Source of the DNA: a virus | Reading direction: 5' to 3' (one strand) | Virus record (IMG/VR): IMGVR_UViG_3300044949_001893 | Location: 1-44,433 of that record | DNA: 44,433 bases | Shown: one piece after another, positions 1 through 27,951 of the stretch | Layout of the letters: every line of letters starts with the position of its first letter | How positions within the stretch are numbered: the first letter of the stretch is position 1 | Translations under genes and position numbers: made by a program | The notes under the pieces: model-generated | Databases searched by the model: none | Seen by the model: only the letters and a program-made list of their open reading frames with translations | Told to the model about the DNA's origin: nothing

Positions 1-80
1 ACGTCGACGGCATCCGCAACAAAGCCGCACAGATCCGCGCCGAGAAGCGCAAAGCCCGCGCCGCCAAACGCCGCCGCTGA
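1..80 (+). CDS. 3' end of small early gene (partial copy of the gene at 42939-43184)
   Basis: The first 80 bases encode the last 26 residues of the 81-residue protein encoded in full at 42939-43184, ending in an Arg/Lys/Ala-rich tail (KRKARAAKRRR). The 5' part is cut off by the contig end; base 1 is the second base of a codon. It is a repeated contig end rather than an independent gene. Function unknown. Confidence 0.85.
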   Translation, partial: VDGIRNKAAQIRAEKRKARAAKRRR

Positions 81-90
81 CCGCCCGACA

Positions 91-115
91 CCGGCGCCGC
101 CTCGAGCGGCGCCGG
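91..115 (+). repeat. GC-rich hairpin after the early gene stop codon
   Basis: A perfect 10-bp stem (91-100 with 106-115) closes a 5-nt loop (ctcga), just after the stop codon at 78-80. There is no T-tract behind it, so it is not a classical intrinsic terminator. It may stabilise or process mRNA, or act as a recombination joint. The identical copy is at 43195-43219, and a related hairpin is at 1675-1700. Confidence 0.75.
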
Positions 116-144
116 CACGGACGGCCAAACGGCCAACCAACACA

Positions 145-198
145 ACAACAACCAAACCCGGGAAGATCCGACCCGGCCAAAAACGGGAAAATCAGACA
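145..198 (+). promoter_or_regulatory. Conserved A/C-rich 5' leader
   Basis: The 54 bases before the start at 199 resemble the leaders at 42441-42489 and 43247-43296. All share the order ACAACAA, CCCGG, a GAxCCxACC core, then AAACGG and an A/C-rich run up to the ATG. No Shine-Dalgarno sequence is visible. The leader is probably unstructured and A-rich to load ribosomes, and it marks the entry to a cassette. Confidence 0.6.
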
Positions 199-669
199 AT
201 GAAAGCTAAACTGACCAAGATCATCGTCGGCAACAACTGCCACAGTTACGTGGCCGACGACGCGCCCTGCGGACTGTATGGACAGACTTCCCGGTGCGTC
301 ATGCAATTCACGGACGGCCGGTGGTCCGTCGAGCGCCGCGAGGGTGCTCGCTTCTCCGGCCGCACCATCCACGACACGGCACGCGAGGCCTTGCTCGAGG
401 CCAAGCAGGGCGGGCACACCTACCAGACCCAGCACGCCCGCCGCGGCGCCACTTGGCCGGCCGCCATGGCAGCCAACCTCTACGACTGCCCGAGCGGCGC
501 CCTCGATGCGTTGCAAAACTACATTGACCGCTGCGTCCGCCGCGGCATCCGTCCGAATGTCGACAAATTCATCAACATGGGCAGCGGCGAGACCGTCACC
601 GACGTCCGCGCCGACTTGGACGTCGACCCGTATCTGCACAAACCCCTTAACCTGGCCGCGGCCGCCTGA
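199..669 (+). CDS. Early cassette-B protein, 156 aa, unknown
   Basis: The ATG at 199 directly follows the conserved A/C-rich leader and is the first start in frame. The protein has 156 residues, no membrane segment and no motif I recognise. It has scattered Cys (around residues 15, 24, 33, 98 and 112) and a C-terminal aspartate-rich stretch. It heads a four-gene cassette (199-1664) that is replaced by a different gene set at the other contig end. The position in the early operon suggests a host-takeover or anti-defence accessory protein, which is inference only. Confidence 0.75.
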   Translation: MKAKLTKIIVGNNCHSYVADDAPCGLYGQTSRCVMQFTDGRWSVERREGARFSGRTIHDTAREALLEAKQGGHTYQTQHARRGATWPAAMAANLYDCPSGALDALQNYIDRCVRRGIRPNVDKFINMGSGETVTDVRADLDVDPYLHKPLNLAAAA

Positions 670-673
670 TCCC

Positions 674-925
674 ATGAAGCAATCCGAATTTTTCGAACGT
701 GTCGCAAACATGGCACACTGCGCCACGCAGCTGAACGACCAGCGGCACATTGCCATCTACACGCGGCAACCCAAACAGAACGAGCTCGGCGTGCCTTGCT
801 TCATTCTTTGGATGCCCGCGGCGACCGACCACGACAAGCAGCAGATGCGCAGCGTTCTGCGACTGCTCAAACGTCACAAGCTGGCCGCCCGGGCGGACAT
901 CGACGGCAACATCGCCAACTGGTAA
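674..925 (+). CDS. Early cassette-B protein, 83 aa, unknown
   Basis: The ATG at 674 lies four bases after the previous stop codon (667-669), so the two are probably translated together. The 83-residue product starts MKQSEFFERV and has a basic helix near residues 60-72 (LRLLKRHKLAARAD). No family is recognised. The longer frame opening at 278 is a shadow of the previous gene, so this internal start is preferred. Confidence 0.7.
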   Translation: MKQSEFFERVANMAHCATQLNDQRHIAIYTRQPKQNELGVPCFILWMPAATDHDKQQMRSVLRLLKRHKLAARADIDGNIANW

Positions 926-926
926 C

Positions 927-1421
927 ATGCACGCCGCAACAATGTTCGTCGTCGCGTGCTCCGGCACCAAGTCCCCCGAGTTCATCGCCAACGGCCGCGC
1001 CCTTGCTTGCAACGCCTACGCCGGCCAGCTGTTCCGCATGGCCCGGCGCCAGGTTAGCGAGGCCCGCGCCGCCTGGTGCATCTTGTCCGGCAAATACGGC
1101 TTCGTCTCGCCGCTCGCCGGCATCGACTACTACGAGCAACGCATGCAACCCGTCCGCGGGATCGACGACATGCCGCACGCCTTCGAGCTGCTGCACGACG
1201 ACCCCACCGGCGCCGGCATCCGGTGCGCCTCGAGGATCATTGTCCTGGGCAGCGCACTCTATGCCGAGGCCGCGGCCGCCTTGCTCCGTCGTCACGTAGA
1301 GGCCCCGCTCGCCGGGCTCCCGATCGGCCGCATGCTGCAACGCATGGCCGCCGGGCTCGTCGCCGCCGAGCTGGCCCGCGACATACCGCACCGGCAGCCC
1401 GAGCTCGAGCTCGCCGCTTGA
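927..1421 (+). CDS. DUF6884-like protein
   Basis: The 164-residue product begins MHAATMFVVACSGTKSP. It has the pattern of DUF6884-type phage and plasmid proteins: a first strand ending in ACSGTK, an LYxGxLF-like segment (YAGQLFRMA, about 32-40) and an ILSGKYGFVSPLAGIDYY core (about 52-69). These proteins form a small alpha/beta fold of unknown activity, and a nucleoside- or base-handling role is only suspected. The start at 927 is one base after the previous stop (923-925). It is the best recognisable gene of cassette B and a plausible anti-defence or DNA-modification accessory. The family call is from memory of the motif. Confidence 0.65.
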   Translation: MHAATMFVVACSGTKSPEFIANGRALACNAYAGQLFRMARRQVSEARAAWCILSGKYGFVSPLAGIDYYEQRMQPVRGIDDMPHAFELLHDDPTGAGIRCASRIIVLGSALYAEAAAALLRRHVEAPLAGLPIGRMLQRMAAGLVAAELARDIPHRQPELELAA

Positions 1422-1457
1422 CCAACCAACCACAACCAACCACAACACGAAAACACC
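1422..1457 (+). promoter_or_regulatory. A/C-rich leader (CCAACCAACCAC type)
   Basis: The gap before 1458 consists almost only of A and C in CCAACCAACCA units, ends in ACACC-ATG and has no Shine-Dalgarno sequence. A near-identical leader stands before 44117 in the alternative cassette. The two cassettes thus use the same initiation signal in front of unrelated last genes. Confidence 0.6.
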
Positions 1458-1664
1458 ATGACAACACCGCACACGCTTGACCACTACGCTGCCACCGATC
1501 GCGCCATCGGCCGCCGCATCACCAAATCATTCGGCGCCTGGCTCGAGGAATGCGAGCGCCATGACGCCTGGCACGAGCTGCCCGACGAGCAACGCAAGCC
1601 CACCCTGGCCAACGTCGCCGCATTCCTGGACGACTACGCCGGCTTCGAGAAGGTCGACATTTGA
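1458..1664 (+). CDS. Early cassette-B protein, 68 aa, unknown
   Basis: This small acidic protein (68 residues, MTTPHTLDHYAATDRAIG) is predicted largely helical, with no known motif. It starts right after the A/C-rich leader, and its stop codon touches the start of the shared 86-bp block. It is the last gene of cassette B. It occupies the same slot as the unrelated 77-residue gene at 44117-44350. Confidence 0.65.
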   Translation: MTTPHTLDHYAATDRAIGRRITKSFGAWLEECERHDAWHELPDEQRKPTLANVAAFLDDYAGFEKVDI

Positions 1665-1747
1665 CCGCCGCACCCCGGCGCCGGATAATCCCGGCGCCGG
1701 CAGCGGCCGCCAAACCATGAGCGCACAACAAGCAAAACAAATCGCCC
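1662..1747. repeat. Exact 86-bp direct repeat of 44348-44433 (contig-end overlap)
   Basis: Bases 1662-1747 match the last 86 bases of the window exactly. The block begins at the stop codon of the preceding gene, includes a GC-rich hairpin and runs into the next gene. Together with the 1-127 block it brackets the variable cassette. Confidence 0.95.
1675..1700 (+). repeat. GC-rich hairpin at the right cassette boundary
   Basis: A perfect 10-bp stem (1675-1684 with 1691-1700) closes the loop ataatc. It follows a TGACCGCC stop-codon context also present before the hairpin at 91-115, and the flanks of the two hairpins are alignable. There is no T-tract. The second copy is at 44361-44386. Confidence 0.75.
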
Positions 1748-1908
1748 GCGACACCGTCCGGGATCTTCTCGCCCAACATCCGCCCGGGCTCGTCGTCATG
1801 ATCCTCCGTGAACTAAAGACGATCCTCCGCGCCACCAAAGACATCACCATCTACGCACCAACCGAAGGAAAGCAGACGCATGAAAACCAAAACACCCCGC
1901 ACCCCTAA
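1717..1908 (+). CDS. Small early protein, 63 aa, unknown
   Basis: The ATG at 1717 (MSAQQAKQIARDTVRDLL) follows the boundary hairpin, and the start is duplicated at 44403. The protein has 63 residues: an amphipathic N-terminal helix and a hydrophobic central stretch (PPGLVVMILREL). No family is recognised. It lies outside the variable cassette and appears to be backbone. Confidence 0.6.
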   Translation: MSAQQAKQIARDTVRDLLAQHPPGLVVMILRELKTILRATKDITIYAPTEGKQTHENQNTPHP

Positions 1909-2050
1909 CGCGCCCGACCTCTGCCCCCATTGCGGCGCCTCCATCAACGCCGCCAGCCTCCTCGCCAAACGTCCCAGCCCCGCCCGCGCCGCCGCCGCCC
2001 GCCGCGCCGCCACCTTCCCGCGTCCTAACCGCAGGAAAGCAGCAGCATAA
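1880..2050 (+). CDS. Small CxxC zinc-binding-like basic protein, 56 aa
   Basis: The ATG at 1880 is preceded by a GAAGGAAAG purine tract. The 56-residue frame overlaps the previous gene by 29 bases. It contains one CPHCGAS knuckle (residues 15-21), then a very basic Ala/Arg tail. It ends 23 bases before the convergent gene at 2073 and is the last gene of the rightward early operon. The function may be nucleic-acid binding; this is weak evidence. Confidence 0.5.
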   Translation: MKTKTPRTPNAPDLCPHCGASINAASLLAKRPSPARAAAARRAATFPRPNRRKAAA

Positions 2051-2072
2051 AACTTCCGCCACCCGGCACCCC

Positions 2073-2342
2073 TTACTTCCCCGAGTCCGCCGGCTCATCC
2101 CGCATCATTAGATGCGCCCCCGCAAACGCGCACCCCACGCACGCCACAAACCCCAGCACCCACGGCCAGCCCGCCGCCGCCGCCATTATGACACCGCGGC
2201 CCCACTCCAGCCTCCCCGCGAAATCCCACGTCGCAAACACCGACGGCCCCGCCCACGTTGCACCCAGCACCCCCGACATAAACGCACAAGCCAGCGCACC
2301 GTAGCACCCCACCGCCAGCAAAACCCACGCCAGCGCCCTCAT
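2073..2342 (-). CDS. Small membrane protein, 89 aa (cargo cluster)
   Basis: The start MRALAWVLLAVGC at 2342 overlaps the previous stop by one base (TGATG), so it is translationally coupled. I see about three hydrophobic segments (residues 4-24, 30-45 and 55-78) and a charged C-terminus. An upstream in-frame start would lie inside the neighbour and is not preferred. It is the last gene of a secreted/membrane trio downstream of the integrase, consistent with lysogenic-conversion cargo. Function unknown. Confidence 0.65.
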   Translation of the reverse strand: MRALAWVLLAVGCYGALACAFMSGVLGATWAGPSVFATWDFAGRLEWGRGVIMAAAAGWPWVLGFVACVGCAFAGAHLMMRDEPADSGK

Positions 2343-3298
2343 CAGTTCCACTTCGCCAGGCGAAGCCCCATCCAAGCATTCACCGCCGCCGCCGGCTGCT
2401 CCCCGCGCCGCGTCGCCCGCACCGACAGCTCACCGAGCGTCGCATAAGCACCACCACGGAACCGCCGTTCCGTCCGCCCCACCGTAGCCAGGTCAAAACA
2501 CCACTCCGCCACATTCCCGCTCATATCGTGCAGCCCCAACTCATTCGCCACCTTCGTCCCCACCCGCTGCACCGACCCCGCATTCTGATCATACCAAGCC
2601 ACCGCGCCCGCGTCATTCGACCCCGCATAAATAAACCCCCCGCTCAGCGTCGCACCCCGCGCCGCCCACTCCCACTCCCGCTCCGAAGGCAAACGCCACC
2701 CCGTCCCACCCACCATCGCCACATCATCCCGCACCCCCGACCGATACACCGCCCCATCCACCTGATACGCCGGCGACAGCCCCGACCACTCCGACAGCGC
2801 ATTGCACCACTTCACCGCATCATGCCAAGTAATCCCACCCACCGGAAAATCATCCCCCGCAAACGCCCCCGCGCCAATGTCATAACCATTCGCCACCGCC
2901 CACGCCCGCACCGCCGCCCACTTCGCCCCCGACACCTCATGCCGCGTTATGACAAACCCATTCATCCACCCCGACCCGAACCACCCCGACTGCACCCCAC
3001 CCGGCACCGTCACCCCATCAAACACCGGCAACACCGGCGCCGGCGTCGGCGAAGGCGACGGCGAAGGCGAAGCCACCGGAATCAACTCACCCGCCAACCG
3101 ATAAAACCCCTTCTCATTCGTCACCCGCCCCGCATTCACCCGCCCGCCGTGCAACATCCCCGCCTCGATCGGCACCGCCACCCAAGGCCCGCCCGGCTCC
3201 TCCGCCCGCTCCAGCCCCACCACCACATCCACCTGCCCCCCGAGAACCGCGACCGCCGACCCAACAACCAAGAACCACCCAAGATAGTGCGCTTTCAT
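2342..3298 (-). CDS. Secreted sulfatase-modifying-factor (FGE/SUMF1)-fold protein, probably non-catalytic
   Basis: A 318-residue protein with a signal peptide (about 1-20) is followed by a small domain ending NEKGFYRLAGE and a PSPSPSPTPAP linker (about 77-88). A C-terminal FGE-sulfatase/C-type-lectin-like domain follows, with marks WHDAVKWCNALSEWSG, WRLPSEREWEWAARG, GLHDMSGNVAEWC and a final GLRLAKW. In true FGE the copper-binding cysteines lie near the C-terminus. Here that part (RRFRGGAYATLGELSVRATRR) has none, so catalysis is unlikely and a binding role is more plausible. It is ATGA-coupled to the lipoprotein gene. Next to the integrase, it looks like a lysogenic-conversion factor. Confidence 0.85.
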   Translation of the reverse strand: MKAHYLGWFLVVGSAVAVLGGQVDVVVGLERAEEPGGPWVAVPIEAGMLHGGRVNAGRVTNEKGFYRLAGELIPVASPSPSPSPTPAPVLPVFDGVTVPGGVQSGWFGSGWMNGFVITRHEVSGAKWAAVRAWAVANGYDIGAGAFAGDDFPVGGITWHDAVKWCNALSEWSGLSPAYQVDGAVYRSGVRDDVAMVGGTGWRLPSEREWEWAARGATLSGGFIYAGSNDAGAVAWYDQNAGSVQRVGTKVANELGLHDMSGNVAEWCFDLATVGRTERRFRGGAYATLGELSVRATRRGEQPAAAVNAWMGLRLAKWN

Positions 3299-3666
3299 GG
3301 TCCAAAACTAAGCGCCGGCCGCGCCTCCAGCCAAGGCCGAATATCCAGCAGCAACCGCTCCGGCACCGCTTCCCCTCGTTGAATCCGCCGCCACACATGC
3401 GCCCCCGACGGCGTATCCGTCGCCCGGATCACCACCGACGGCCCCACCGGCAGCCCCTCCGCCGACGTCCGCACCCGCACCGCGATCGGCGCCACCCCGA
3501 TATACTCATTATTCCGCTCCACATACGCCCCCCGCGGAATCGTCTGCACCAAGATCTCCCGGAAATGCTCCACCTCCGGCGCCGCCACCGGCACCGGCCT
3601 CGAAGCACACCCCGTCCCGATTACAACGGCGACAACGGCTGCAACTGCGCGTGATAATTGTCCCAT
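3295..3666 (-). CDS. Lipoprotein with PEGA-like domain
   Basis: This 123-residue protein starts MGQLSRAVAAVVAVVIGTGC. It has a basic-hydrophobic signal and a GTGC-A lipobox with the lipidated Cys near residue 20. The segment IPRGAYVERNNEYIGVAPIA resembles PEGA surface domains. The start at 3666 lies inside the end of the integrase gene (46-bp overlap), and the end overlaps the next gene by ATGA. It is probably envelope-anchored cargo expressed from the prophage; a spanin role is less likely given its position. Confidence 0.75.
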   Translation of the reverse strand: MGQLSRAVAAVVAVVIGTGCASRPVPVAAPEVEHFREILVQTIPRGAYVERNNEYIGVAPIAVRVRTSAEGLPVGPSVVIRATDTPSGAHVWRRIQRGEAVPERLLLDIRPWLEARPALSFGP

Positions 3667-4772
3667 GCTGTCTTGATTCCCTTCTGCCTTAGAAACGTCG
3701 CCATCGCCGTCAGTCCATACTTCTGCGCCACCTCCGAGCCCGACTGCTTCCGCAACAAATACGCCTTCTTCTCCTTCGGTCCCGCCTCCGGAAAGAACGG
3801 CCGCATAAAACCATTGATCGTCCGACTCGTCAGAATCTTCGCCTCCGTCGGATTCCCCCGCGGTATGACAAACTCCCCATCCCTCCCCAGCGCCCGCAAC
3901 AACTGCCCCAGCACCCGCCGGCGGATCGGCACCACCCCCGCCGACTTCTTCGGCGCAAACTTCGTCCCATCCGCATACGAGTATTCCAGCACCCGGATCT
4001 CCCAATGCTTCGCCCCCCGCTTGATCCAACTCCACCGCAGCGCCGCCACCTCGATATTCCGCAGCCCGCACCACCGCATCAGCGCCCACACCGCCCACAA
4101 CTTCCGCTCCTCCAGATCCGCCGACATCCGCAGCTGCTCCGCCGCCGCCTCCATCCGCGCCAGCGTCCCCGCCTCGATCCCCTGGAACTTCTGCCTCGCC
4201 TCACCCTTCACATTCTCCGCCATCACCTCGCAAAACTCCGACATATCCGGCAACACCAACCCCTCATGCCGATACCACCGCATCGGCTTCTTCCCAAACA
4301 TCACCCGGATCTGCCGCGCCGTCGACTTCCGCCCCTCATGCGCCCCCGGCCACGCCCGAAGATACTTCTCAAACGCCCCCGCCGAGCACCGCGTCATCGA
4401 CACCCCATCCGGGTCCCCGCCGGCAAACGACCGCACAAACTTCCGAAACGCCGACGCATTATTCTTCCGCGTCATCGCCTCCGACATCTCCAGCCAAACG
4501 CGACAAACATCCCCCACCGTTGCATACCCCGGCCGCGCCATAGTTTCCCGCGCATCGCCCCCCGTCAGCAACGACTTGGCAATAATCTTCGCTTGCATCA
4601 GCGCCAGCTTCTTGTCAGTGTGGTGCGTCGTCCGATTGCGCCGCTTCCCATGAATCAGCACCCGGTAATACCAATGCTTTTCACCCTTCGGTTTATACAC
4701 CGTCACCTCGCCATGCTTACGCTGGCGCCGAGCCACTTTACAGTCCACTTCCATACGCGCATCATTGCCCAA
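3621..4772 (-). CDS. int: Tyrosine recombinase / phage integrase (divergent)
   Basis: This 383-residue integrase has a basic N-terminal arm-binding part (YRVLIHGKRRNRTTHHTDKK), a core-binding helical domain (about 90-190) and a catalytic domain. Box I Arg is visible in MRWCGLRNIEVAALRW. The C-terminal box reads AYLLRKQSGSEVAQKYG and ends TAWDNYHA with the likely nucleophile Tyr. The usual His of HxxR is Tyr here, and the LGH position reads LRQ, so two catalytic positions are changed. The first start (4772) is used; an ATG six codons in is possible. It sits directly beside a tRNA-Arg half, the expected attP setting. Confidence 0.85.
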   Translation of the reverse strand: MGNDARMEVDCKVARRQRKHGEVTVYKPKGEKHWYYRVLIHGKRRNRTTHHTDKKLALMQAKIIAKSLLTGGDARETMARPGYATVGDVCRVWLEMSEAMTRKNNASAFRKFVRSFAGGDPDGVSMTRCSAGAFEKYLRAWPGAHEGRKSTARQIRVMFGKKPMRWYRHEGLVLPDMSEFCEVMAENVKGEARQKFQGIEAGTLARMEAAAEQLRMSADLEERKLWAVWALMRWCGLRNIEVAALRWSWIKRGAKHWEIRVLEYSYADGTKFAPKKSAGVVPIRRRVLGQLLRALGRDGEFVIPRGNPTEAKILTSRTINGFMRPFFPEAGPKEKKAYLLRKQSGSEVAQKYGLTAMATFLRQKGIKTAWDNYHAQLQPLSPL

Positions 4773-7900: not shown

Positions 7901-10900
7901 GATCGCCAGCTGCATCACCTTGCTCGTCGAGATCGTCTCATCCGGCTGGGCATTCGCCATACTCCACTGGTCGATCGCCGGCTTGTTCTGGAAACGATGC
8001 ACCGCCCGCGCCGCGTCCCGCAGTTGCGCCGCCATCTTCGGGTAAAATTGATCCGCCGCCGCACTGATCGCCGCCGTGACTTTGAGATTCTGCACCGCCG
8101 GCGGGTCCACCATGAGGAGTCGCGTCCACTCCGCCACGCCCTCGCCGATTAAATACTCCCGCTTCGTCGCCTCGCTCGCATTGCCCGGCGGCTGGCTCGC
8201 CATGCTCCCCGGCAGTTGCGTCAGCGCCAGAAGTTCATCCGCGTGCTGATTCCAAAACCCCGGCGCCTTCGCATCCAGGAGAAACTCCAGCCCGTGCCCC
8301 GCCTCGTGGAAATTGATCTGGCTCTGCGTTGCCCGCGTGAACGCCGTATGATTCCCCGGGCGGTAGACCGCCGGATGCGAACGCGTTGTCTGCGACGTCG
8401 ACCGCTTCATCTCCAGGTTCACCGCCCGGTTCACATGATCCACGATCGACCGGTAGCCCCAATGTTGCCCCGGCTTATAGTTCTCGATCCCCTTGATGAG
8501 TCGTCGTCCCTCGCCCGTTTCGCCCTGGCGCAGCACCCAATCCGGCCGCGGCGTTGACGTATCCGCCGGCCGCGCCACCCCAGGCGGCACCCAAGCCGGC
8601 CCCGAGGCCGCCGGCGGCGTCGCCCCCCGCCGCGCTCCAGTCCCCCCGGTAGGGACCGCTGGCCCAGCGGTCCGTGTTGCCTTGGTTTTTGATGTTGGAA
8701 ACGCCTCAGAGTCAGCGGTCGCACCCTGCCCCGTAGCCATTGGTGAATCAAACGATTCCACCGGCATTGCCCATCCGCGATTCGGCGGGTTTGGACGCAC
8801 GGCTTCAAGCGATCCGCCGCCGCTGTATTTCCATTCGCCTTGCCCTGCCACGCGCACATAGCTGGCATGCGTCTCGTCGGGATGCTTGGCTTGATAATCT
8901 GCCAGCGTGTCAGCGTATCCGCTTCTAATCCTTGGCTTAATCTCTTGTTGAAAAATCTCTTCGGTCAGCGGGACCGTAATTTGTTGGTTGCCGTAGGCTT
9001 GTCCACCCTCCTTGTTGCGCATCCATTGGAATCGCTCGACGGCCGTTTGCTCAAGCGGACTTAGCGCAGCATCCTCCGGCAACTCCTGTCGCGGCGCCGT
9101 CCCCCGCCGCGCCAGCCCCGCCATCGGCTCATCCGCCGCACCGACCCGCCCGTCCCCGTAGGCAAACATCGGTTTGCCACTCCGCAACCGTTGCTCCAGC
9201 AGCTCGAAGAGATCCGCCTCCGTCTCGACCTTGAAACCCTCCGCTTGCAGCGCCATCACCACGCGGTCCACATCATTCGCATCCTTGCGGAAGAGATCGC
9301 GGGCCTGCTTGATCCCCAGGTCCCGGGCGCCCCGCGCCATCTCCTGCAACCTCCGCAGCTCGCCCGACCATCCCGCCTTATTCTTCCCCTTCGCCGCCGT
9401 CGGCAGCCCGCCCGCCATGCGAATCGCCTCGAGCAGATCCACCCCACCCTGCCGCATATTCTCGCCCGCCTCACGTTCCTGCCCCTGCACGTATTTGCCC
9501 CAAGCATCGAACGCCGCCTGGTCAAACACCGCCAGCCCCGTCGCCTCATCGCGCACATAATACGGCACCCGCATCTCGTAGAGATCCAGCGCCGCCGCCG
9601 ACACCGGTTGGTTGGCATTGATCGCATCGCGCACGATCCGGAAATGCTCATTGAAAAGTTCCGTCGTCGCCTCCGGGTTGAAATCCATGTCAATCCCCCG
9701 CTCCGTCCCCAGCGTCACGGCAAAATCATCCGGCGTCATCATCGCCGGCGTCATCGGCGGAGGCGTCACGATCGTCTCGCGTCCCGCCGGCATCACATTC
9801 ACCGGCGCCTGCCGCGGCGCCACCGGCGCGGACCCCGTCCGTGCCGCCGACACCGCCGCCGCCCGGGCCGCCGCCGCATCCGGCAACCGCGGCGGCACAT
9901 AGTAAGTCATCTCCGGCCGAGCGCCCGTCACCTGACGGAATCCCGGCACCCCGGCCTGCGCTGCATTGAAAGTCACCTGCGGCTCGCGTCCCCCCGCCGC
10001 CTGCATCCCCGCGGTCAACCGCCGCATCGGCACCTCGAGCGCCCGGAAAATCTCCGCCTCCTCCCGGCTCAGCCCCTGCCCCGTCGCCTGCTTGTTCAGG
10101 ATGAGATTCACCTTCTCATCCGGAATCCGCCGGTTCCCGATAAAGAATCCACTCAAAAGCAAACCCGCGCCCGCACCCGTCGCCACATCCCCCGCCGTGA
10201 AAGGCTCGCCCGTCATCGCCGCCGTGATCGGCACCGCCGCCGCACCCGCCACCGTGCCCGCGCCCGCCGCTTGGCCGGCAACACGAGCCACCTCCCGGGC
10301 GCCACCCGCCGCCGCCGCCGTCTGGAGTCCACGCACCGCCTGCACGCCCGACACCGGGAGCGACAACGCCGCCACGCCCAGCTCGCCGCCCATCTTCCAT
10401 TCCGGCTTCAGCTTCGCCGCCGCCAGCACCGCATCATACTCCTCCATGTGCCGGCCCAGCTGCTCGTAGACCGCATCGTAAGCCATCCCCGCACCCACGC
10501 CGCCCACGATCGCCGCCCCCGTCCCGGCCACCAGGCCAACGACCGGAGCCAAAGGCGCCGCCGGAGTCATCGCCGTCACCCCCGCCGCCGCCGGACCCAC
10601 CAGCTTCGCCGCCCCGATCGCGCCCGCTGTCATCGCACCGCCGCGGCCCGCGCCGTAGAGGAGCGCCATCAATTCCGGATTATCCCCCGCCCGCCGCTCG
10701 AGCGCAGCACGCAGCTTCTCATCCTCTTGGGCCTTCTTGATGAGCGCCTCGCGGTCCTTCGTCACCCGTTCCACTTCCGGCGCCGCCGCCATGCCCGTCT
10801 GGTAATCCTCCTCCGAGATCAGCCCCGCATCGAACGCCCCCTGCAAACCCTGCGACAAACGCGCCGGGTCAAAATTCACCATGCCCCCCACCGGCACCTG

Positions 10901-11452
10901 CTGACCATTAACCGCCACCGTCCCCATCGCCCCCGTAAATTCAAACGCCTGTTTAGGTTGCTCCGGCTCCGCATCGAGGAACGCATCCACCTCCTCCGGC
11001 GAAGAGAACGCTCCCCCGGTAGGGACCGCTGGCCCAGCGGTCCGCTCCTCCGGCGCATCAAGAAACGCATCCACATCCTCCGGCGTAGCAAACGTCGGCG
11101 CCGGTCCCGTTACCGGCGGCAGATCCTCATCCGCTTGTGGTAGGGCGGGACCTCCGGGCCCGCCGTCCTTCGTCGGCAACGGCGGCTCGCCATTCTCATC
11201 CAGCACCGCCTGCACATTCGGTTCGATCGCGCCATCCAGCGGACGCTCCAGCTGCAATAGCGGCGTCGGGTCCTCCGGCGCTATGTCCACCGCGGACGGC
11301 CCCGCCGGTTCCGGCAGCATGTTGGGATTCCGCACCGCCGCATTCGATTCCTCGAGGATGCGACGCTGTTCCTCCTCGGCCGACAGCAGATCCACCGGCG
11401 CGTCGAGAAACGCGTCGGCCTCCTCCACCGAGTTAAACGCCGGGACTGCCAT
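4952..11452 (-). CDS. Giant polyvalent / internal virion protein with HExxH motif (2166 aa)
   Basis: The start MAVPAFNSVEEADAFLDA at 11452 (AAAGGG upstream) is preferred over an upstream frame extension. The N-terminus repeats a DAFLDA motif three times between about residue 12 and 160. A long Ala/Gly-rich hydrophobic region (about 260-450) may cross membranes. A putative zinc-peptidase motif HEAGH lies near 1049-1053. The C-terminal third (RRTITQSTPF-like segment, GLQRDMISQML around 1610, then NFAQVLTDPDPAVRGRMAAR) resembles the LPD38 domain of polyvalent proteins ejected with phage DNA. It is the largest late gene and lies beyond the fibre and nozzle genes, as expected for an ejected protein. 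Two copies of a 30-nt palindrome and one 27-nt palindrome are translated in frame within it. Confidence 0.8.
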   Translation of the reverse strand: MAVPAFNSVEEADAFLDAPVDLLSAEEEQRRILEESNAAVRNPNMLPEPAGPSAVDIAPEDPTPLLQLERPLDGAIEPNVQAVLDENGEPPLPTKDGGPGGPALPQADEDLPPVTGPAPTFATPEDVDAFLDAPEERTAGPAVPTGGAFSSPEEVDAFLDAEPEQPKQAFEFTGAMGTVAVNGQQVPVGGMVNFDPARLSQGLQGAFDAGLISEEDYQTGMAAAPEVERVTKDREALIKKAQEDEKLRAALERRAGDNPELMALLYGAGRGGAMTAGAIGAAKLVGPAAAGVTAMTPAAPLAPVVGLVAGTGAAIVGGVGAGMAYDAVYEQLGRHMEEYDAVLAAAKLKPEWKMGGELGVAALSLPVSGVQAVRGLQTAAAAGGAREVARVAGQAAGAGTVAGAAAVPITAAMTGEPFTAGDVATGAGAGLLLSGFFIGNRRIPDEKVNLILNKQATGQGLSREEAEIFRALEVPMRRLTAGMQAAGGREPQVTFNAAQAGVPGFRQVTGARPEMTYYVPPRLPDAAAARAAAVSAARTGSAPVAPRQAPVNVMPAGRETIVTPPPMTPAMMTPDDFAVTLGTERGIDMDFNPEATTELFNEHFRIVRDAINANQPVSAAALDLYEMRVPYYVRDEATGLAVFDQAAFDAWGKYVQGQEREAGENMRQGGVDLLEAIRMAGGLPTAAKGKNKAGWSGELRRLQEMARGARDLGIKQARDLFRKDANDVDRVVMALQAEGFKVETEADLFELLEQRLRSGKPMFAYGDGRVGAADEPMAGLARRGTAPRQELPEDAALSPLEQTAVERFQWMRNKEGGQAYGNQQITVPLTEEIFQQEIKPRIRSGYADTLADYQAKHPDETHASYVRVAGQGEWKYSGGGSLEAVRPNPPNRGWAMPVESFDSPMATGQGATADSEAFPTSKTKATRTAGPAVPTGGTGARRGATPPAASGPAWVPPGVARPADTSTPRPDWVLRQGETGEGRRLIKGIENYKPGQHWGYRSIVDHVNRAVNLEMKRSTSQTTRSHPAVYRPGNHTAFTRATQSQINFHEAGHGLEFLLDAKAPGFWNQHADELLALTQLPGSMASQPPGNASEATKREYLIGEGVAEWTRLLMVDPPAVQNLKVTAAISAAADQFYPKMAAQLRDAARAVHRFQNKPAIDQWSMANAQPDETISTSKVMQLAIAQGNAVADAVASGAPFSRMGRRILRSILKEWDESMGLEVKAVDKMRQVRKLTDRVQFAHNYKLMVGGETTRAIKGKGLRMLDMDGNFVNLLDYSWRDATRTVSPKHFQRFMEYGWARTALYRYNFFVDRARTARAAGDEEAVQANLAKAQYPLLNEGFGPDKLKEIVTAAEREIPNAQLGYAKIQKYFDTLLHLKLRGGLKSKDEVERMTEQEDYWPLVKQVYGDGNRAGTSSKGDVQSGDMTIKGSQEAIEDLNAVAINKTKQALDAHANNRLMWLLEDVTAKIANDPKVPVLTRTMAGQQVVRLNIPTEAAATPAQIREQVKAAVEKHMKQQMGFQPQLRDEDLKLLDALEFDGIWRPARPNDANVISYLRGGERRYLLVNDPAMFNFFANKQAMDGVLKALNWMAGPLSENYKRTITQSTPFAVAGLQRDMISQMLLNPDAIGWVPGGSLVQGLWNKLSGKYPQLAQDGLLLSRVEPSSTELMDHLRRSSVMQFLTEGFYVGTSKDPTARALQTWLQPSNYLLYTPLIGFKSQDIVNLVTGGRFLSPLVETGAREGAAAYALKMGAKDEEAAMKYWTSSGQFNEHPLSANLRGMIRPMMFFNPMVQGMRNFAQVLTDPDPAVRGRMAARLIQVAAMSSVGAGATYMWMSDEDKERERERPIEERMGYANVGGFRLAFAYGPEGVVQSVAWNAMMDHLLERPKELGRKEAMLLVNRVFDVGSPLAVFGPQMTALFEAQANFSYFKQKHIVSPWMSALPASEQYYMSTPDFYRKVGKWIDYSPAKIEYIMRQAIGRQADETVKLLESVGGGKPVNLEAAELPFVGRLFARDPMGFGSMSMRKVEEIDATLRQIDTRLAAKGWSTILRNPEFPVDQLPTNELRALHTQLQYLEFLRRGHQIVQNWPSLGGMDKLRQDAKVYGISERYIEEKNMQVALTRYAQAILSWNADGVEQMESVLKLLDQIPEGTPEQRAWDYEQRIR
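8645..8674. repeat. 30-nt palindromic element, in-frame copy 1
   Basis: This block is identical over 30 bases to 11015-11044 and, inverted, to 26274-26303. Its core GGACCGCTGGCCCAGCGGTCC is an almost perfect palindrome. It encodes TAGPAVPTG near residues 927-936 of the polyvalent protein. Confidence 0.9.
11015..11044. repeat. 30-nt palindromic element, in-frame copy 2
   Basis: This is the second copy inside the same gene (residues about 137-146), in the same reading frame and orientation as 8645-8674. It encodes the same TAGPAVPTG peptide between two DAFLDA repeats. Confidence 0.9.
11139..11165. repeat. 27-nt GC palindrome (family 2), in-frame copy
   Basis: The reverse complement is identical to 35207-35233 and differs by two compensating bases from 29345-29371 and 35683-35709. 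Here it encodes GGPGGPALP within the polyvalent protein N-terminus. The CGGCGGGxCCGGAGGxCCCGCC core forms a stem. Confidence 0.85.
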
Positions 11453-22867: not shown

Positions 22868-23308
22868 TTAGTTAAGGACGGTATTGATGGCGATGGCCCG
22901 CATGGTGAGGGAGATTTCGCCGGAGGCGTCGGGGACGGTGAGCGTGCGGGTGGTGCCGGAGGTGATGCCGGAGAGTTGGAAGGCTAGATTTTTGGAGCTG
23001 TCCGCGTTGTCATAGAGGAGGAAGTTGGCGTCGTTGAAGACGTCGGGGAGGATGCCGGCGTAGGTGTAGTCGGCGTCGCGGCTGACTCCTGCCGTGGCCG
23101 TGCGGATGTAGATGCCGGCGGGTTTGCGGGCGATCAGCCAGGTGCCGCTGGCTTCGCGGACGAGCCAGGCGGTGTTCAGGGCGGCCGAGCCGTCCAAGGG
23201 GAGGTCGGTGTAGGTGGCGACTTCTCCGTCGATGTAGGACGCGCCTCCGCCGCCGCCGGACCCCTTGAGGTCGAAGTTGCCGGTCAGCGGATTGAAAGCG
23301 AAGCCCAT
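22868..23308 (-). CDS. Structural protein, 146 aa
   Basis: MGFAFNPLTGNFDLKGSGGGGGAS is a common start of small phage structural or fibre-like proteins, followed by a beta-rich domain ending TVPDASGEISLTMRAIAINT. The N-terminal FNPLTGNFDL unit is frequent in fibre anchors. A heptamer array lies just upstream. Confidence 0.7.
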   Translation of the reverse strand: MGFAFNPLTGNFDLKGSGGGGGASYIDGEVATYTDLPLDGSAALNTAWLVREASGTWLIARKPAGIYIRTATAGVSRDADYTYAGILPDVFNDANFLLYDNADSSKNLAFQLSGITSGTTRTLTVPDASGEISLTMRAIAINTVLN

Positions 23309-23335
23309 TGGAAATTAGAAATTTGAGATTTAAGA
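23309..23335. repeat. Heptamer array (GAAATTA/GAGATTT type)
   Basis: Imperfect 7-nt units (GAAATTA, GAAATTT, GAGATTT) fill the gap between 23308 and 23330 and reach into the end of the next coding region. Confidence 0.7.
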
Positions 23336-23539
23336 GCGGACGACGGTGGCGATGCGGGCGTCGTCCGAGGACGGCGTGCCGCCGACATACGTGAAGGTCA
23401 GCGTGGCGACGGTGTTGGTCCCCTCTTTGTAGACGACGCTGGAAAGATTGTTGGTGGTCGAGACGTAGCTCAGCTCAACGGTCGTATGCTGCGGGATGTT
23501 CAGTCCGGGAATGTTTCTGACTTGGACGTTGGGGTTCAT
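23330..23539 (-). CDS. Small structural protein, 69 aa
   Basis: MNPNVQVRNIPGLNIPQHTTVELSY... contains short beta strands and ends at the heptamer array. A similar MNPN start occurs at 20600. It is probably a small virion or neck protein; no family is recognised. Confidence 0.6.
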   Translation of the reverse strand: MNPNVQVRNIPGLNIPQHTTVELSYVSTTNNLSSVVYKEGTNTVATLTFTYVGGTPSSDDARIATVVRS

Positions 23540-23612
23540 TGGAAAGTTAGAAGGAAAAAGGAAGAAGGATGAATGGTTCGGACTTTTGCATTTTGCATTC
23601 TGCGTTCTTCAT
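23540..23612. repeat. Gap with AT-rich heptamer units
   Basis: The gap after the portal gene contains TTTGCAT TTTGCAT TCTGCGT TCTTCAT units (23583-23610) and a purine-rich stretch. No hairpin or gene is seen. Confidence 0.6.
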
Positions 23613-25769
23613 TTATGCGGCGGCGGGGGTTGCTGTTGACCCACGCGCCGCAAAGGCTCCGCCCATGCTTTGGGGCTGGGACGCCAGGGCGGGGACGGCG
23701 CCGGTTCTCCCGATTTGGGCGTTTTGGATTTGGGTCATTTGGAAGTTCAGGGCTTGGGCTCTTGCATCGACCATGCCTTTGTAGATTTCGTCGCCGGCGT
23801 ATCTCTGCTGGAGTTGCGGATTTGCCTGGATCGCGCTTTGGAGGACTTGCAATCTCAGCTGGGGATTGACGCCTTGTTCGGGCAATGGGGGCTCGATGCC
23901 GGCGCTGATCTTGGTCAGGGCGAGTTGTTCGTCTTCGGCTTCTTGGGCGGTGGCGACGTCTTGGCTTCTCACGATCATGGACGCGAGGCTTGGGTCTACG
24001 GCCCCGACGATGAAGTTGACCAACCCGGCGCGATCAATAACGCCGGCGACGTCGAGGGGGACGGCGACTTTGGCGATATATTCGAGCTTTTTGCCGAGGA
24101 CTTCGGCGTCGAGGTCGCGGACGTCGAATTCGGCGACCAGGTCGTAGCGGCCTTGGATCTGCTCGCGGCTCACCTGGAAGGGGGCGGGCATGGCGCCGGC
24201 GACTCGGGCGATCTCGGTGTCGCTGACGTATTGCTGCATGAGGGCGAAGGCTTGGGCGATGACGGCTTTGCTGCTGCGGAGCCAGCGGTCGACCATGGTT
24301 TGCTGGGTCAACATGGTGAGCGGCTGCGGGACCGACTGGCTGAAGCGGCCGAAGTATTCGTCGACGTCGCGGCGGGTGGCGGCTTCGATCTCGATGGTGC
24401 CGCTGTCGAAACGCGGGGGGTCCATCCAACCGAATTCGTTGGGGCGTCTTTCCGGGATCTGGGCGCCGGGGCCGAAGATGAGGTTTAGCTTGCCGCGGTT
24501 CGCGGGGACGCGCACGGGCGGGAGGACGGCGACGGCGGCGCGGTCGCTGCGGAAATCGCGCTGCGTTTTGATCTCATACTGTTGGCTCTCGAGGAGCTCG
24601 GGGACGCCGCGGGATTCGAGGAGGTTGCGGGAGATGCGTTCGCGGGCGAATTCGACGAAGGGGTAGTCGCCGTGCGCGTAGGGCAAGAGTTCGCTGACGG
24701 CGACTTCTTCGGCGACGGATTCGTGGAGGACGGTGTAGTGGACGCGGGTGGTTTGGTCCTTGTTGAATTGCTTCTGGTAGTAGTGCCAGAGCTCGATCAT
24801 CTCGCGCTCGGTCTCGAGGTTGATGATTTCTTGCCGGTAGTAATTCCTGATCGGGCGGCGGTAGGCGCCTTTGTGGCGGAGGGCTTGTTCGACGAAGTCT
24901 TCGCTGTAGCCGTCGGTGACGATGCGTTCGCGCAGTTCGGTCTCGGTGACCATTTCGCGCCAGGTGACGTAGCGGGCGCGTTGGAGGTCGGAGGTTTGAG
25001 GGGGAAAGTAGATGTCTTCCCACGGCTCGAGGGCGACGAATTCGGGGCGGTTCTCGAAGAGGTAGGGATTTTCGTAGGTGCAGGCGCCGGTGTTGCGGAG
25101 GTCGCGGACGCAGCTGAGCTTGCCGGCGGCGGGGCCGATGAGGTCGGCAAGCATTTGCTTGGCGTCTTCTTCCTGGAGCGGGTCCATGATGCTCTCGAGG
25201 AGGATCTGGATCATGGGGTCCCCGGTCTCGGCGAGCATGGCGGCGAGCTGGTCGAGGGTGATGGTCTTGGATTCGGTGCGGGTGGTGCGGCGCCAGAAGA
25301 CTCCCATCACGGCGAGGCCGTATTGTTCCTGCATTTGGGCGAGGAGTTCGACTTCGCGGCGTAGGTCGTCGGCGCAGTGCTGGAAGAGCATCCATTTCAG
25401 CGCGGTCTCGGCGCTGACTTTGGCGGCGTAGTCGCTGGACTCGATGGGTTGGAGTTGGATTTTGCTGCGGAAGAAGGCGTTGGTGAGGAGGGCGACGTTC
25501 TCGTTGCAGATTTGGTCGGCAAGGCGGACGCGGGCGTCGCTGGCGCCTTCCCAGGGGAAGGCTTGCTTGGCCAGGGCGGAGGAATGTTTGCGTCCGTCGG
25601 GGGATTGTCCGGACCAGATGGCGTGCCTTACCTCGTAGTTGCGTTGCTTTTTGTCGAGGTAGCCGCCGACGTCGGACTCGGCTTCCTGGATGTTGAGGAG
25701 GAAGCCGCGGATGTCTTCGGGGGTCGGGCGGCCGAGGGTGGCTTCGTAGTTGTAGCCGTCCGACGTCAT
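23613..25769 (-). CDS. Portal protein, 718 aa
   Basis: The start MTSDGYNYEATLGRPTPEDI at 25769 is ATGA-coupled to the previous gene. Length and pattern fit podoviral portals: an early WSGQSPDGRKHSSALAKQAF and PWEGASDARVRLADQICNEN segment, the ALEPWEDIYFPPQTSDLQRA clip/wing region, a long central stem with TTRVHYTVLHESV, and a Gln/Ala-rich C-terminal barrel (LQVLQSAIQANPQLQQRY). It forms the dodecameric DNA channel of the head. It is encoded before the capsid genes in map order and transcribed after them. Confidence 0.88.
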   Translation of the reverse strand: MTSDGYNYEATLGRPTPEDIRGFLLNIQEAESDVGGYLDKKQRNYEVRHAIWSGQSPDGRKHSSALAKQAFPWEGASDARVRLADQICNENVALLTNAFFRSKIQLQPIESSDYAAKVSAETALKWMLFQHCADDLRREVELLAQMQEQYGLAVMGVFWRRTTRTESKTITLDQLAAMLAETGDPMIQILLESIMDPLQEEDAKQMLADLIGPAAGKLSCVRDLRNTGACTYENPYLFENRPEFVALEPWEDIYFPPQTSDLQRARYVTWREMVTETELRERIVTDGYSEDFVEQALRHKGAYRRPIRNYYRQEIINLETEREMIELWHYYQKQFNKDQTTRVHYTVLHESVAEEVAVSELLPYAHGDYPFVEFARERISRNLLESRGVPELLESQQYEIKTQRDFRSDRAAVAVLPPVRVPANRGKLNLIFGPGAQIPERRPNEFGWMDPPRFDSGTIEIEAATRRDVDEYFGRFSQSVPQPLTMLTQQTMVDRWLRSSKAVIAQAFALMQQYVSDTEIARVAGAMPAPFQVSREQIQGRYDLVAEFDVRDLDAEVLGKKLEYIAKVAVPLDVAGVIDRAGLVNFIVGAVDPSLASMIVRSQDVATAQEAEDEQLALTKISAGIEPPLPEQGVNPQLRLQVLQSAIQANPQLQQRYAGDEIYKGMVDARAQALNFQMTQIQNAQIGRTGAVPALASQPQSMGGAFAARGSTATPAAA

Positions 25770-26206
25770 AGGGATGAGACTTGAGTTTGAGACTTGAGTG
25801 ACGGGGTGTTGACCGGTTGGTTCGGCGCCGGGGACGGCGCCGCTACAGTGCACTCAGGTTTCAAGTTTCCGGTTTCAGCCTTCGCGGGTGCTTCGAGTCC
25901 GGCAAAACTTACTTGAGTTTTGCTGGACGATGACTGCACCCGGCACTCGGGGTTGTCGCGGAGCAATGATTTGAGCCAGTCTTTGTCTCTTGTGATTCCG
26001 GGGTTGCGGCGTTCCCAATCGATGAAGGCGAAGGCGTCGATGCTGGCTACGTGTTGCCCTACCCCCTCAATGTGGGCGTGCTCGAGGCGGGCGTTGGCCT
26101 CGGCGATGCGGAGCTGCCGGGCCCGGGCGTTGACGGCTTGGGCGTAGAAGCCGCGCTGTAACTCCTCTTTGACGAGGGAGCCGAGTTCGGTATCTAGATC
26201 AAGCAT
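25766..26206 (-). CDS. Head-associated protein with repeat-derived C-terminus, 146 aa
   Basis: The N-terminal 85 residues (MLDLDTELGSLVKEELQRGF, then FIDWERRNPGITRDKDWLKS) look like a conserved phage module. The last 60 residues are low-complexity. They arise from a GGCGCCG-type hairpin repeat (around 25827-25850) and a heptamer array (25772-25800, encoding LKSQTQVSSL). The overlap with the portal gene is ATGA. The repeat tail looks like an expansion that erased an earlier stop codon. Confidence 0.65.
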   Translation of the reverse strand: MLDLDTELGSLVKEELQRGFYAQAVNARARQLRIAEANARLEHAHIEGVGQHVASIDAFAFIDWERRNPGITRDKDWLKSLLRDNPECRVQSSSSKTQVSFAGLEAPAKAETGNLKPECTVAAPSPAPNQPVNTPSLKSQTQVSSL

Positions 26207-26217
26207 AAGAGACTAAG

Positions 26218-26303
26218 AGCCGAGCGGAGCGAGACAGGCTGAGCGCAGCGAAGCCAAACGAGTTGAAAGGCAGCGGACCGCTGGGCCAGCGGTCCCTACC
26301 GGG
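26218..26303. repeat. Dispersed 38-nt element and third 30-nt palindrome
   Basis: 26218-26255 is the inverse of the element at 20666-20702 (central bases differ). 26274-26303 is an inverted perfect copy of the 30-nt palindrome found twice inside the polyvalent gene. Both are non-coding here. Confidence 0.85.
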
Positions 26304-26323
26304 AGAAGATGTGAGTGAAGGAA

Positions 26324-26413
26324 CACGCTTTTGCTCCCCTGGGAATTTTCCCTGAATCCCACCATGAGTTGTTGCCGAGTTGGCGACATGAACCCAGGGG
26401 AGCAAAGTGCGTG
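26324..26413 (-). repeat. Long inverted repeat / structured RNA candidate
   Basis: A 20-nt arm (26324-26343) pairs with 26393-26413 with one bulge. Two smaller hairpins sit inside: GGGAATTTTCCC, and GTTGCC-gagtt-GGCGAC. It lies in a 215-bp gap between the 149-residue capsid-associated gene and the next late gene. There is no poly-T, so attenuation, RNA processing or a mobile palindromic element are possible. A related structure is at 38321-38399. Confidence 0.65.
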
Positions 26414-26421
26414 CTACCTCA

Positions 26422-26871
26422 TCAGCTGAGGCTGTCGAGCTGGGCGACTTCGAGGAAGATGTGGATCTCCCCTTTGTCGAGCTCGAGCAGGTCGTAGCTC
26501 GCCATGGAGGCGAACTTGGCGACCACCGCGGTCGAGGCAACGTAGGCGTGAGGCGTGGTCGAGGCGTGGGCCTTGGCCAACACTTCGGTGCCGTTCACGT
26601 TGATTTGCTGCGACGTGATGAAGCGGTCGTCGTCGGTGGCGTCGCCAACGATGACGGTGTTGCTGTTGTAGGCCGAGGTGCCGACCAGCTCGAAGGGGGT
26701 CTTCAAGTAGGTGGCGGCGGACTTCACGACGCTGTTGGCCGGCAGGGTGATCAAGGTGATGTCCTGCGCGGTGTTGTCGGTGCCCTGCGTCAGATCGGTG
26801 TGATCAATGACGAAGCGGTAGTTGAATCCACGAGGACTCTCGTGGAGGCTGCGGAATGCGTTAGTTGTCAT
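26422..26871 (-). CDS. Capsid-associated / decoration-like protein, 149 aa
   Basis: GGAGG lies upstream of the ATG at 26871. MTTNAFRSLHESPRGFNYRF, then a beta-rich body (LITLPANSVVKSAATYLKTP, YVASTAVVAKFASM) ending in DLLELDKGEIHIFLEVAQLD. Encoded directly after the major capsid gene, it is probably a head decoration or capsid-completion protein. Family unrecognised. Confidence 0.75.
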   Translation of the reverse strand: MTTNAFRSLHESPRGFNYRFVIDHTDLTQGTDNTAQDITLITLPANSVVKSAATYLKTPFELVGTSAYNSNTVIVGDATDDDRFITSQQINVNGTEVLAKAHASTTPHAYVASTAVVAKFASMASYDLLELDKGEIHIFLEVAQLDSLS

Positions 26872-26889
26872 AGTGATGATTTCCTCCGA

Positions 26890-27903
26890 TTAGTCCGCGG
26901 TGCTGGCGATCTTGCCGTGCACGAGGGGGTTATCGACCTGGAGCGCAGCGATCGTGTCCACGATGCCACGGGGGCCTCCGCCGGCGTCGTCGAGCGGCAT
27001 GTAGCGCGGGCGACGGTTGTAGCGGATCGAAACGCCATCCATATCCAGGAGGTAACCGCGACGCAGCTGGGAAGCTGTGACTTGGTCTTTAGCCAGGAAC
27101 AAGGACGGTGTGAGGGCCAAGTCGCCGAAGTCTCCAACGAACAGATCGACCTTCGCGTAGTAGCTCATGTCTTCGCTGTTCTGGTTGAAGGTGCGAACGA
27201 CGGCGCCGGTGTTGGTGCTGCCGAACTGAACCTGCTGGAAGCCAGTAAAGCGGCGTTTGAGGGTCGGCCCGCACAAAAGCGTGTAGCTCTTGTTTTTGCC
27301 GCACTGCTCATACAACGACTGGAGCAGCGCCTGGATGGTGCCATCCGTGATGCTGTTGGTCGCGGTCGTGGTGATGGACGCGGCGGGTGTGCGGTAGGCA
27401 GCGGGAACGGCGGTGGCGCTGTCGGATTGAGCCGAGTTGGAAATCCAACTACCCAGGCCCCTAGTTTTGAAGGGGGTGGTGCCGGATTGTTCGGTGCTGT
27501 CCTGGTCGGAGCAGAACACGGATTCGAGATCGCGTGCGAGCTCCTGGAGGGAGCGGGTCACGCTACGAGCCATCTCCCGTTTGCGGCCGATGCCGGCGAC
27601 ATCCGAGACGGACTCGGCGAGGTCGTCGACCTTGGGCAAACGCCACATCTTTTGGATGCGGCCGTAGAGGCGGGCGCGGTTGGCAGCCTGGTTGGAGAAC
27701 GTGGTTGCGTCCTGGTTGGAGAGCACGCCGGTGAGGACGGGCTCGTTCATTGCGTCGACAAGCCAGCTGAAAAGCGGGTTGGTCGGGTCTTTGGATTTTT
27801 TCGCCATCGAGAGCAGCGGTGTGCTCTTTTGGTCCGCAACCGCGATGAGGTCCGCGAGATCCTCGCGTGCGCCCACCTGGTTGGTAATGAGAAGTTCAGC
27901 CAT
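26890..27903 (-). CDS. Major capsid protein, DUF5309/SU10 type, 337 aa
   Basis: The protein has the DUF5309 (SU10-like major capsid) layout: MAELLITNQVGAREDLADLI, ADQKSTPLLSMAKKSK, then PLFSWLVDAMNEPVLTGVLS, WRLPKVDDLAESVSDVAGIG and the late GDLALTPSLFLAKDQV and LDMDGVSIRYNRRPRYMPL segments. It builds the HK97-fold head shell. The gene is flanked by the scaffold gene and the capsid-associated gene. The upstream ribosome-binding site is weak (AAAACC), unlike the neighbour. Confidence 0.88.
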   Translation of the reverse strand: MAELLITNQVGAREDLADLIAVADQKSTPLLSMAKKSKDPTNPLFSWLVDAMNEPVLTGVLSNQDATTFSNQAANRARLYGRIQKMWRLPKVDDLAESVSDVAGIGRKREMARSVTRSLQELARDLESVFCSDQDSTEQSGTTPFKTRGLGSWISNSAQSDSATAVPAAYRTPAASITTTATNSITDGTIQALLQSLYEQCGKNKSYTLLCGPTLKRRFTGFQQVQFGSTNTGAVVRTFNQNSEDMSYYAKVDLFVGDFGDLALTPSLFLAKDQVTASQLRRGYLLDMDGVSIRYNRRPRYMPLDDAGGGPRGIVDTIAALQVDNPLVHGKIASTAD

Positions 27904-27951
27904 TGTAGTTGGTTTTCTAAATGTTGGTTTGGAATCTTGGTTGGAGTTCGA

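Follow-up and report, generated by a model that had tools for sequence, protein, structure and literature searches.

Hairpin Linkers Behind Stop Codons in a Variable Gene Array of a Virus Contig

Hairpins and Gene Array of the Window

The DNA analyzed is a 44,433-base virus contig (IMG/VR record IMGVR_UViG_3300044949_001893, positions 1 to 44,433; record class linear), referred to here as the window. A variable gene array occupies parts of both contig ends, and genes of this array are followed by two related GC-rich hairpin elements, designated H1 and H2. The array is limited by the gene at 41991-42269 on the left and by a small gene, K (1717-1908), on the right. A different cassette of genes is found at each contig end, and the two are termed alleles A and B in keeping with the reading given below. 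The features of the array are listed here with distances in nucleotides (nt) and base pairs (bp).

41991-42269, plus strand: small ribbon-helix-helix-like gene, left conserved flank of the array (assigned by sequence reading; no Pfam match; adjoins the array in most relatives)
42377-42404, plus strand: array promoter (TTGACA, 16 nt, TATATT; 11 of 12 consensus positions)
42490-42942, plus strand: first array gene, no assigned function
42939-43184, plus strand: conserved 81-amino acid array gene, 3'-end duplicated at 1-80
43182-43299, plus strand: H1 linker of allele A, running from the stop codon through the hairpin, a CAA-rich tail, and a leader to the next start codon
43195-43219, plus strand: H1 hairpin, allele A copy, perfect 10-bp stem
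43297-44350, plus strand: allele A cassette genes (43297-43521, 43518-43688, 43685-44080, and 44117-44350)
44348-44397, plus strand: H2 element of allele A (stop codon, hairpin)
44361-44386, plus strand: H2 hairpin, allele A copy, perfect 10-bp stem
78-201, plus strand: H1 linker of allele B, with the same parts as in allele A but a second type of leader
91-115, plus strand: H1 hairpin, allele B, perfect 10-bp stem, loop CTCGA
199-1664, plus strand: allele B cassette genes (199-669, 674-925, 942-1421 encoding DUF6884, and 1458-1664)
1662-1711, plus strand: H2 element of allele B (stop codon, hairpin)
1675-1700, plus strand: H2 hairpin, allele B, perfect 10-bp stem, loop ATAATC
1717-1908, plus strand: gene K, conserved flank on the right side of the array; 44403-44433 repeats its first bases
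1-127: left self-overlap of the contig, exact copy of 43105-43231
44348-44433: right self-overlap of the contig, exact copy of 1662-1747

The GC hairpins at 91-115 and 1675-1700 that were named in the original prediction are real. Both have perfect stems and are preceded by the common sequence TGACCGCC, the TGA of which is the stop codon of the upstream gene. When loops of 3-10 nt are scanned, the four H1 and H2 sites are the only hairpins in the window with a perfect 10-bp stem, and 0-3 such hairpins (mean of ~0.5) appear in each of 20 first-order Markov shuffles of the window. The RNA fold energies at 91-115 and 1675-1700 are -34.6 and -37.0 kcal/mol, respectively, with z values of -3.96 and -4.66 relative to shuffles. 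No T-run follows H1 or H2 in scans of both array ends of the window, and no terminator-like site is listed there. A known RNA family was ruled out, as the window contains no Rfam match at the gathering score. A promoter-like sequence (TTGACC, 17 nt, GATAAT) appears at 1661-1689 with its -10 hexamer in the H2 loop; it agrees with 10 of 12 consensus positions, and 0.1 such matches are expected in shuffles.

Matching Contig Ends

The hairpins had also been placed exactly where the similarity between the contig ends starts and stops, and this does not hold. The left match runs from the contig end through H1 to 12 nt past the stem, with a gapped match that extends to 173, and the right match (86 bp) begins at the stop codon, 13 nt ahead of the H2 stem, and continues to the contig end. 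Since both matches reach the contig ends, the outer limits of similarity are set by the contig ends and not by biology. The repeated blocks consist of the 3'-end of gene 42939-43184 with the first part of the H1 linker and of the H2 element with the start of gene K, and the gene content between these blocks differs at the two contig ends. Nor are H1 and H2 the matched brackets of one cassette, because H1 recurs inside arrays (as many as three copies in one array) and the final element ahead of K is consistently H2. H2 is found ahead of K in both window alleles and in the mapped relatives that reach K, except for L131, where K overlaps the preceding gene.

The simplest and preferred reading of the matching ends is that the sampled population contains two alleles of one array, probably split by assembly, and that the ends are neither a duplication nor a natural terminus. 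A single circular or permuted genome with two array alleles would have been traversed by the assembler once along each allele. The exact 127-bp left overlap would fit a k-mer of 127 in a de Bruijn assembler. A point against this account is the right overlap of 86 bp rather than 127, so that a single assembly k-mer cannot account for both ends. A true repeated array within one genome would explain why a single contig carries both cassettes. It is regarded as highly improbable, given that both contig ends fall inside genes common to the two cassettes, that the left overlap is exactly 127 bp, and that none of the mapped relatives has two K genes or an H2 element within an array.

Array Genes and Relatives

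Relatives, which together with the window form a group of uncultured phages, were gathered by protein and pattern searches of IMG/VR and are identified by L numbers; genes were called with a custom codon-usage script. A -35-like hexamer and a palindrome precede the first array gene in all 14 loci listed, and in the window the array promoter overlaps the near-palindrome TAGCGAGCGCACGCTA at 42385-42400. The close relative L124 (same contig as L006 and L021; DnaB 98% identical) has an array in which three H1 linkers and one H2 element punctuate RadC, homologues of 42939-43184 and 199-669, and further genes. The allele B genes sit in the same slot in L124 and L102, and window positions 927-2341 are 98.3% identical to L102.

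The first array slots of several relatives are occupied by RadC, ArdA, or ArdC, and the array of one relative carries a DUF2958 gene. Pfam returned no match for the array genes of the window that were tested, except for DUF6884, and PADLOC returned only weak JAB matches and one PDC-M57A match. Because the arrays of relatives encode ArdA, ArdC, and RadC, an antirestriction role of the array is likely, that of the window's own genes being judged from these relatives, and the array is probably a counter-defense island.

A third type of junction is found at 1418-1457 and 44077-44116, where a 36-nt unstructured leader, CCAACCAACCAC, precedes the last cassette gene; it is present in relatives as well. 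Near position 9115 of L113, gene K is seemingly frameshifted; its sequence past the start codon falls one base short of the window version, and gene calling returned nothing there.

Sequence, Pairing, and Spacing of the Linker Family

The H1 linker, measured from the stop codon to the next start codon, is mostly 113-125 nt long in the core group of relatives. The order of its parts is stop codon, short lower stem, upper stem of 9-11 bp, GGCC-NNN-GGCC-like tail, CAA-rich stretch, and leader to the ATG. The upper stem reads CCGGCGCCGC, CCGGGCCCGC, GCGCCCGGG, CCGCCCCCG, and others across phages with the pairing kept; 13 distinct stems were counted in 30 elements, a set that left out the near-duplicate contigs L107, L122, L123, and L045 and the second L097 site. 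Covariation was measured with 14 of 29 sequences, namely those with stems that align in register, the structure having been derived from the same sequences. In the resulting alignment A3 (12 distinct rows), 91.1% of the cells are paired versus 79.8% in shuffles, and 15 two-sided changes appear versus 4.8 in shuffles; neither figure was reached by any of 500 shuffles. All 13 H2 elements share one stem sequence, and the loop varies. The window H2 is nevertheless scored by the H1 covariance model at an E-value of 4.7e-9, which is a rough value.

The stems are tied to the stop codon and to long gaps. Of 58 array gene ends with a downstream gap of ≥40 nt, 34 have a perfect stem of at least 6 bp that begins no more than 25 nt past the stop codon, and in 25 of the 34 the onset is at position 11 after the stop codon. 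Such stems are found at 0 of 15 gene ends with gaps of 5-39 nt and at 2 of 54 with gaps of <5 nt. The mean fold z values for these three classes are -2.76, 0.29, and -0.54, respectively. In the distant phages L115, L116, L119, L120, and L121, a stem of other sequence lies 6-11 nt after the stop codon.

A search of 558 kb in 41 sources with the covariance model gave 49 matches at E ≤ 2.4e-5, all of which are at array-type junctions in the sense of the genes (for this orientation count, L045 is the L109 contig reversed). Of nine weaker matches, eight are antisense copies and the other is a weak site in L110. No match was obtained in 16 of the 41 sources, and several of those stretches may not reach the array. 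A genome-wide repeat was ruled out, since the matches are confined to the array. Among 16 stretches found by the tail pattern, L139 and L140 were rejected as chance matches inside genes.

Gene Exchange at Linkers and Elsewhere

Breakpoints of similarity were collected from 17 array segments using alignments of at least 85% identity and at least 60 bp; L099 and L101, which have no array, were left out. The set contains 209 clustered breakpoints, which, like the pair counts below, are not independent events. H1 linkers account for 69 and H2 elements for 16, for a total of 85 in 11.8% of the array length. Similarity at H1 mostly starts at the stop codon and stops near the next start codon. Among pairs that share the gene on the left, the same right neighbor is kept at H1 in 4 of 25 versus 19 of 44 at hairpin-free junctions (Fisher p of 0.03, the pairs not being independent). 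These counts include four hand-corrected junctions (three at segment limits and one L106 gene call); before correction they were 3 of 19 and 19 of 46, respectively. At H2 junctions, the right neighbor is kept in 21 of 21 pairs. The most variable of the three classes are the H1 junctions.

The two halves of the H1 linker were compared using 20 of 31 linkers, after L102 (start miscalled), L103, L108, and the distant groups had been dropped. Within genomes, hairpin halves share 92.3% identity (8 pairs) compared with 83.4% between genomes, a difference reached by 4 of 2000 permutations. Leader halves share 86.2% identity if they precede the same downstream gene (19 pairs) and 78.9% if they precede different ones, a difference reached by 19 of 2000 permutations. 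The converse tests are weak, with 427 of 2000 permutations for the hairpin half by downstream gene and 163 of 2000 for the leader half within genomes. The hairpin half thus follows the genome and the leader half follows the downstream gene, which suggests that many joints lie between the hairpin and the leader.

Other breakpoints limit this role. The remaining 124 of the 209 are outside H1 and H2, with 62 at hairpin-free gene edges (4.8% of the length), 22 at other intergenic positions, and 40 inside genes. Hairpin-free gene edges are more enriched per base than H1 and H2, which indicates that gene edges in general are seams and that the hairpin is not required for exchange. The evidence for homologous exchange within the linker is mixed: its halves have separate histories, yet most breakpoints are elsewhere. 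The linkers would therefore appear to act as exchange seams, although not as the only ones.

Exchange anchors had been one of two roles proposed originally. The breakpoint share, the change of neighbor at H1, and the histories of the linker halves agree with it, and the breakpoints outside the elements do not. It had further been expected that gene content in relatives would change only between the hairpins, which fails on those breakpoints and in two further cases. A natural empty allele is found at positions 5340-5702 of L099, where the array, the promoter, and K are all absent and the sequence matching window position 42355 is joined to that matching 2067, with no hairpin there. The minus-strand gene at 2342-3298 (weak match to phrog_18508) is present in the window, L099, and L112 and absent from the matching place in L124, with no hairpins bounding the change. 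Overall, the original observation was confirmed in part and its interpretation is supported in part.

Function of the Hairpins

The explanation favored here, with moderate confidence, is that H1 and H2 form hairpins between the cistrons of an operon, probably early, that has a single promoter and exchangeable accessory genes, and that the contig ends represent two alleles of it. The polycistronic unit is suggested by the gene order and the presence of one promoter. H1 and H2 can each form in mRNA just past a stop codon, where the hairpin may protect or delimit the 3'-end of the upstream cistron and set it apart from the CAA-rich, unstructured leader of the following cassette. With a hairpin-delimited end and a separate leader, a gene dropped between two linkers would acquire a working start and end. 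Since copies recur within and between genomes, the linkers may also offer homology for gene replacement, and most of the joints would then fall where hairpin and leader meet or at the start and stop codons. The RNA hairpins would thus end each cistron, and recombination would be a by-product. The near-fixed distance from the stop codon, the compensatory changes, the single orientation, and the lack of a T-run favor an RNA element that signals where a cistron ends, and stabilization of the upstream transcript is a candidate role.

RNA punctuation was the other role proposed originally; the covarying stems and the spacing from the stop codon support it, and the evidence for the acting strand is mixed. 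Among the non-Watson–Crick cells of the upper stem, 6 would be G-U in the sense RNA and 1 in the antisense. Two observations point the other way: the lower-stem wobble count is 1 for sense versus 3 for antisense, and the minus strand of the hairpins folds more stably. The antisense excess in the lower stem can be traced to a frequent C-A mismatch, which would become G-U on the antisense strand.

The inverted repeat itself might instead promote recombination at the DNA level, with an RNA role that is secondary or absent. The concentration of 85 breakpoints in 11.8% of the length, the neighbor kept in only 4 of 25 H1 comparisons, and the homogenization of the 5'-half of the linker within genomes are what such an anchor would produce. 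It is nonetheless unlikely: 62 breakpoints are at hairpin-free gene edges, the stem varies between phages and so offers less homology where the anchor would need it, and a fixed spacing from the stop codon is unexpected for a DNA site. Moreover, no stem variation is seen among the 13 H2 elements, and still the gene on the right of H2 is always the same. Transcription attenuators, or terminators that function without a U-tract, would give graded expression along the array and would be compatible with strong GC stems after stop codons and with one recognizable strong promoter at the array start. This alternative is considered improbable, because no T-run follows any H1 or H2 in the window and because genes downstream of H1 lack individual promoter-like matches, so that full termination would silence them; the match at H2 is weak. 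Terminators with a U-tract were ruled out by the missing T-run in the window scans.

The promoter-like match at 1661-1689 and the invariance of the H2 stem would also suit H2 as the promoter of gene K, with the -10 hexamer in the hairpin loop and H1 as a different, non-promoter relative. The loops of relatives weaken the -10 hexamer (GATACT, GATCAT, GAACAT, and GACACT), and the -35 hexamer is the stop-codon context that is common to H1, making this assignment very unlikely. A tentative and rather doubtful extension of the favored explanation is that the structured linker is a plug-in site for counter-defense genes, through which antirestriction sets would be swapped by ordinary recombination without a dedicated integrase. 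The hairpin half would stay with the genome and the leader half would come with the gene, which would then be expressed and ended correctly.

Comparison with Known Systems

The repetitive extragenic palindromic (REP) sequences and bacterial interspersed mosaic elements (BIME) of enterobacteria are GC-rich intercistronic palindromes after stop codons that stabilize the upstream mRNA, and they are chromosomal and scattered. H1 and H2 are likewise GC-rich palindromes located directly after stop codons, here in a presumed polycistronic unit, but they are confined to one phage array.

The nearest described elements are the repeats of the start-associated sequence (SAS) and extended SAS (ESAS) system of Cluster K mycobacteriophages (PMC3203893, PMC12699233). 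These are recurrent inverted repeats in long intergenic gaps of non-structural genes, mostly in one orientation and linked to gene starts, with a 17-bp imperfect ESAS repeat upstream of a 13-bp Shine–Dalgarno-like SAS that adjoins the start codon; the ESAS consensus varies by subcluster (PMC3203893, PMC12699233). H1 and H2 are also inverted repeats whose arms are split by a short spacer, and they occupy long intergenic gaps in one orientation, but the stem is 9-11 bp and its distance from the stop codon is near-fixed. The 13-bp SAS, GGGATAGGAGCCC, next to the start codon is absent, by reading, from the 31 linkers listed.

The nearest process to the exchange in the array is the proposal of conserved boundary, or linker, sequences for phage mosaicism, in which a short conserved sequence at module junctions could support homologous exchange (PMC3029335). 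Conserved H1 and H2 sequence is similarly found at junctions with changing gene content; in contrast to that proposal, H1 and H2 are at ~40% of the breakpoints and the linker is also a structured element. In gene content, the nearest system is the anti-defense island of plasmid leading regions, where antirestriction genes such as ArdA are grouped with structured elements and the Frpo structures hold promoter elements upstream of genes (PMC11541004). Unlike Frpo, H1 lies directly after stop codons without promoter elements: H1 gave no promoter match and H2 gave the weak match described above. Control at the 3'-end of phage cistrons has a precedent in phage T4, where RNase E processing occurs close to the gene 32 stop codon (PMC3014915). 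No description of the H1/H2 element was found in the literature searched, which is not proof that none exists.

Whether phage mosaicism arises through conserved linkers or mostly through illegitimate joints is a long-running question. The array provides a measurable case, in which the linker is visible, its halves differ in history, and the array's own hairpin-free junctions provide an internal control. Antirestriction proteins are among the products of the genes exchanged in relatives, so the system is relevant to the swapping of counter-defense genes by phages, and the covariance model is a handle for finding such arrays elsewhere.

Host Searches and Other Repeats

The window encodes DnaB-like helicase, replication initiation, head, tail, and integrase-like proteins, the phage integrase-like gene being located at 3621-4754. 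No host was found by the element-pattern or DnaB searches. The exact element pattern has no match in the genome contigs searched, where the nearest DnaB relatives are ~40% identical and spread over many phyla. Among 50,697 records of cultured phages, none matches the array segment 42300-44433 at the DNA level. In the 8 of 34 head-protein matches listed, identity is ≤31% and the matched phages come from many hosts, and the repeat-based host test gave a match in 1 of 4 genomes.

Other repeats are present in the window. Seven dispersed GGGATTGGAGATTTGAGATTT-like copies are found among minus-strand genes at 23304-37810, and AGTTGGCAG repeats are located near 34992-37790. A second dispersed hairpin, GGACCGCTGGNCCAGCGGTCC, appears at 8645-8674, 11012-11046, and 26272-26306, and a GC-rich GCGGCGGGTCCGGAGGCCCCGCCCTACC-like repeat appears at 29343-29373, 35205-35235, 35681-35711, and 11139-11165; each occurs in two orientations. 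The palindrome TTCTAGGTAGTTCTACCTAGAA at 41922-41943 lies between two divergent small genes and is a possible operator.
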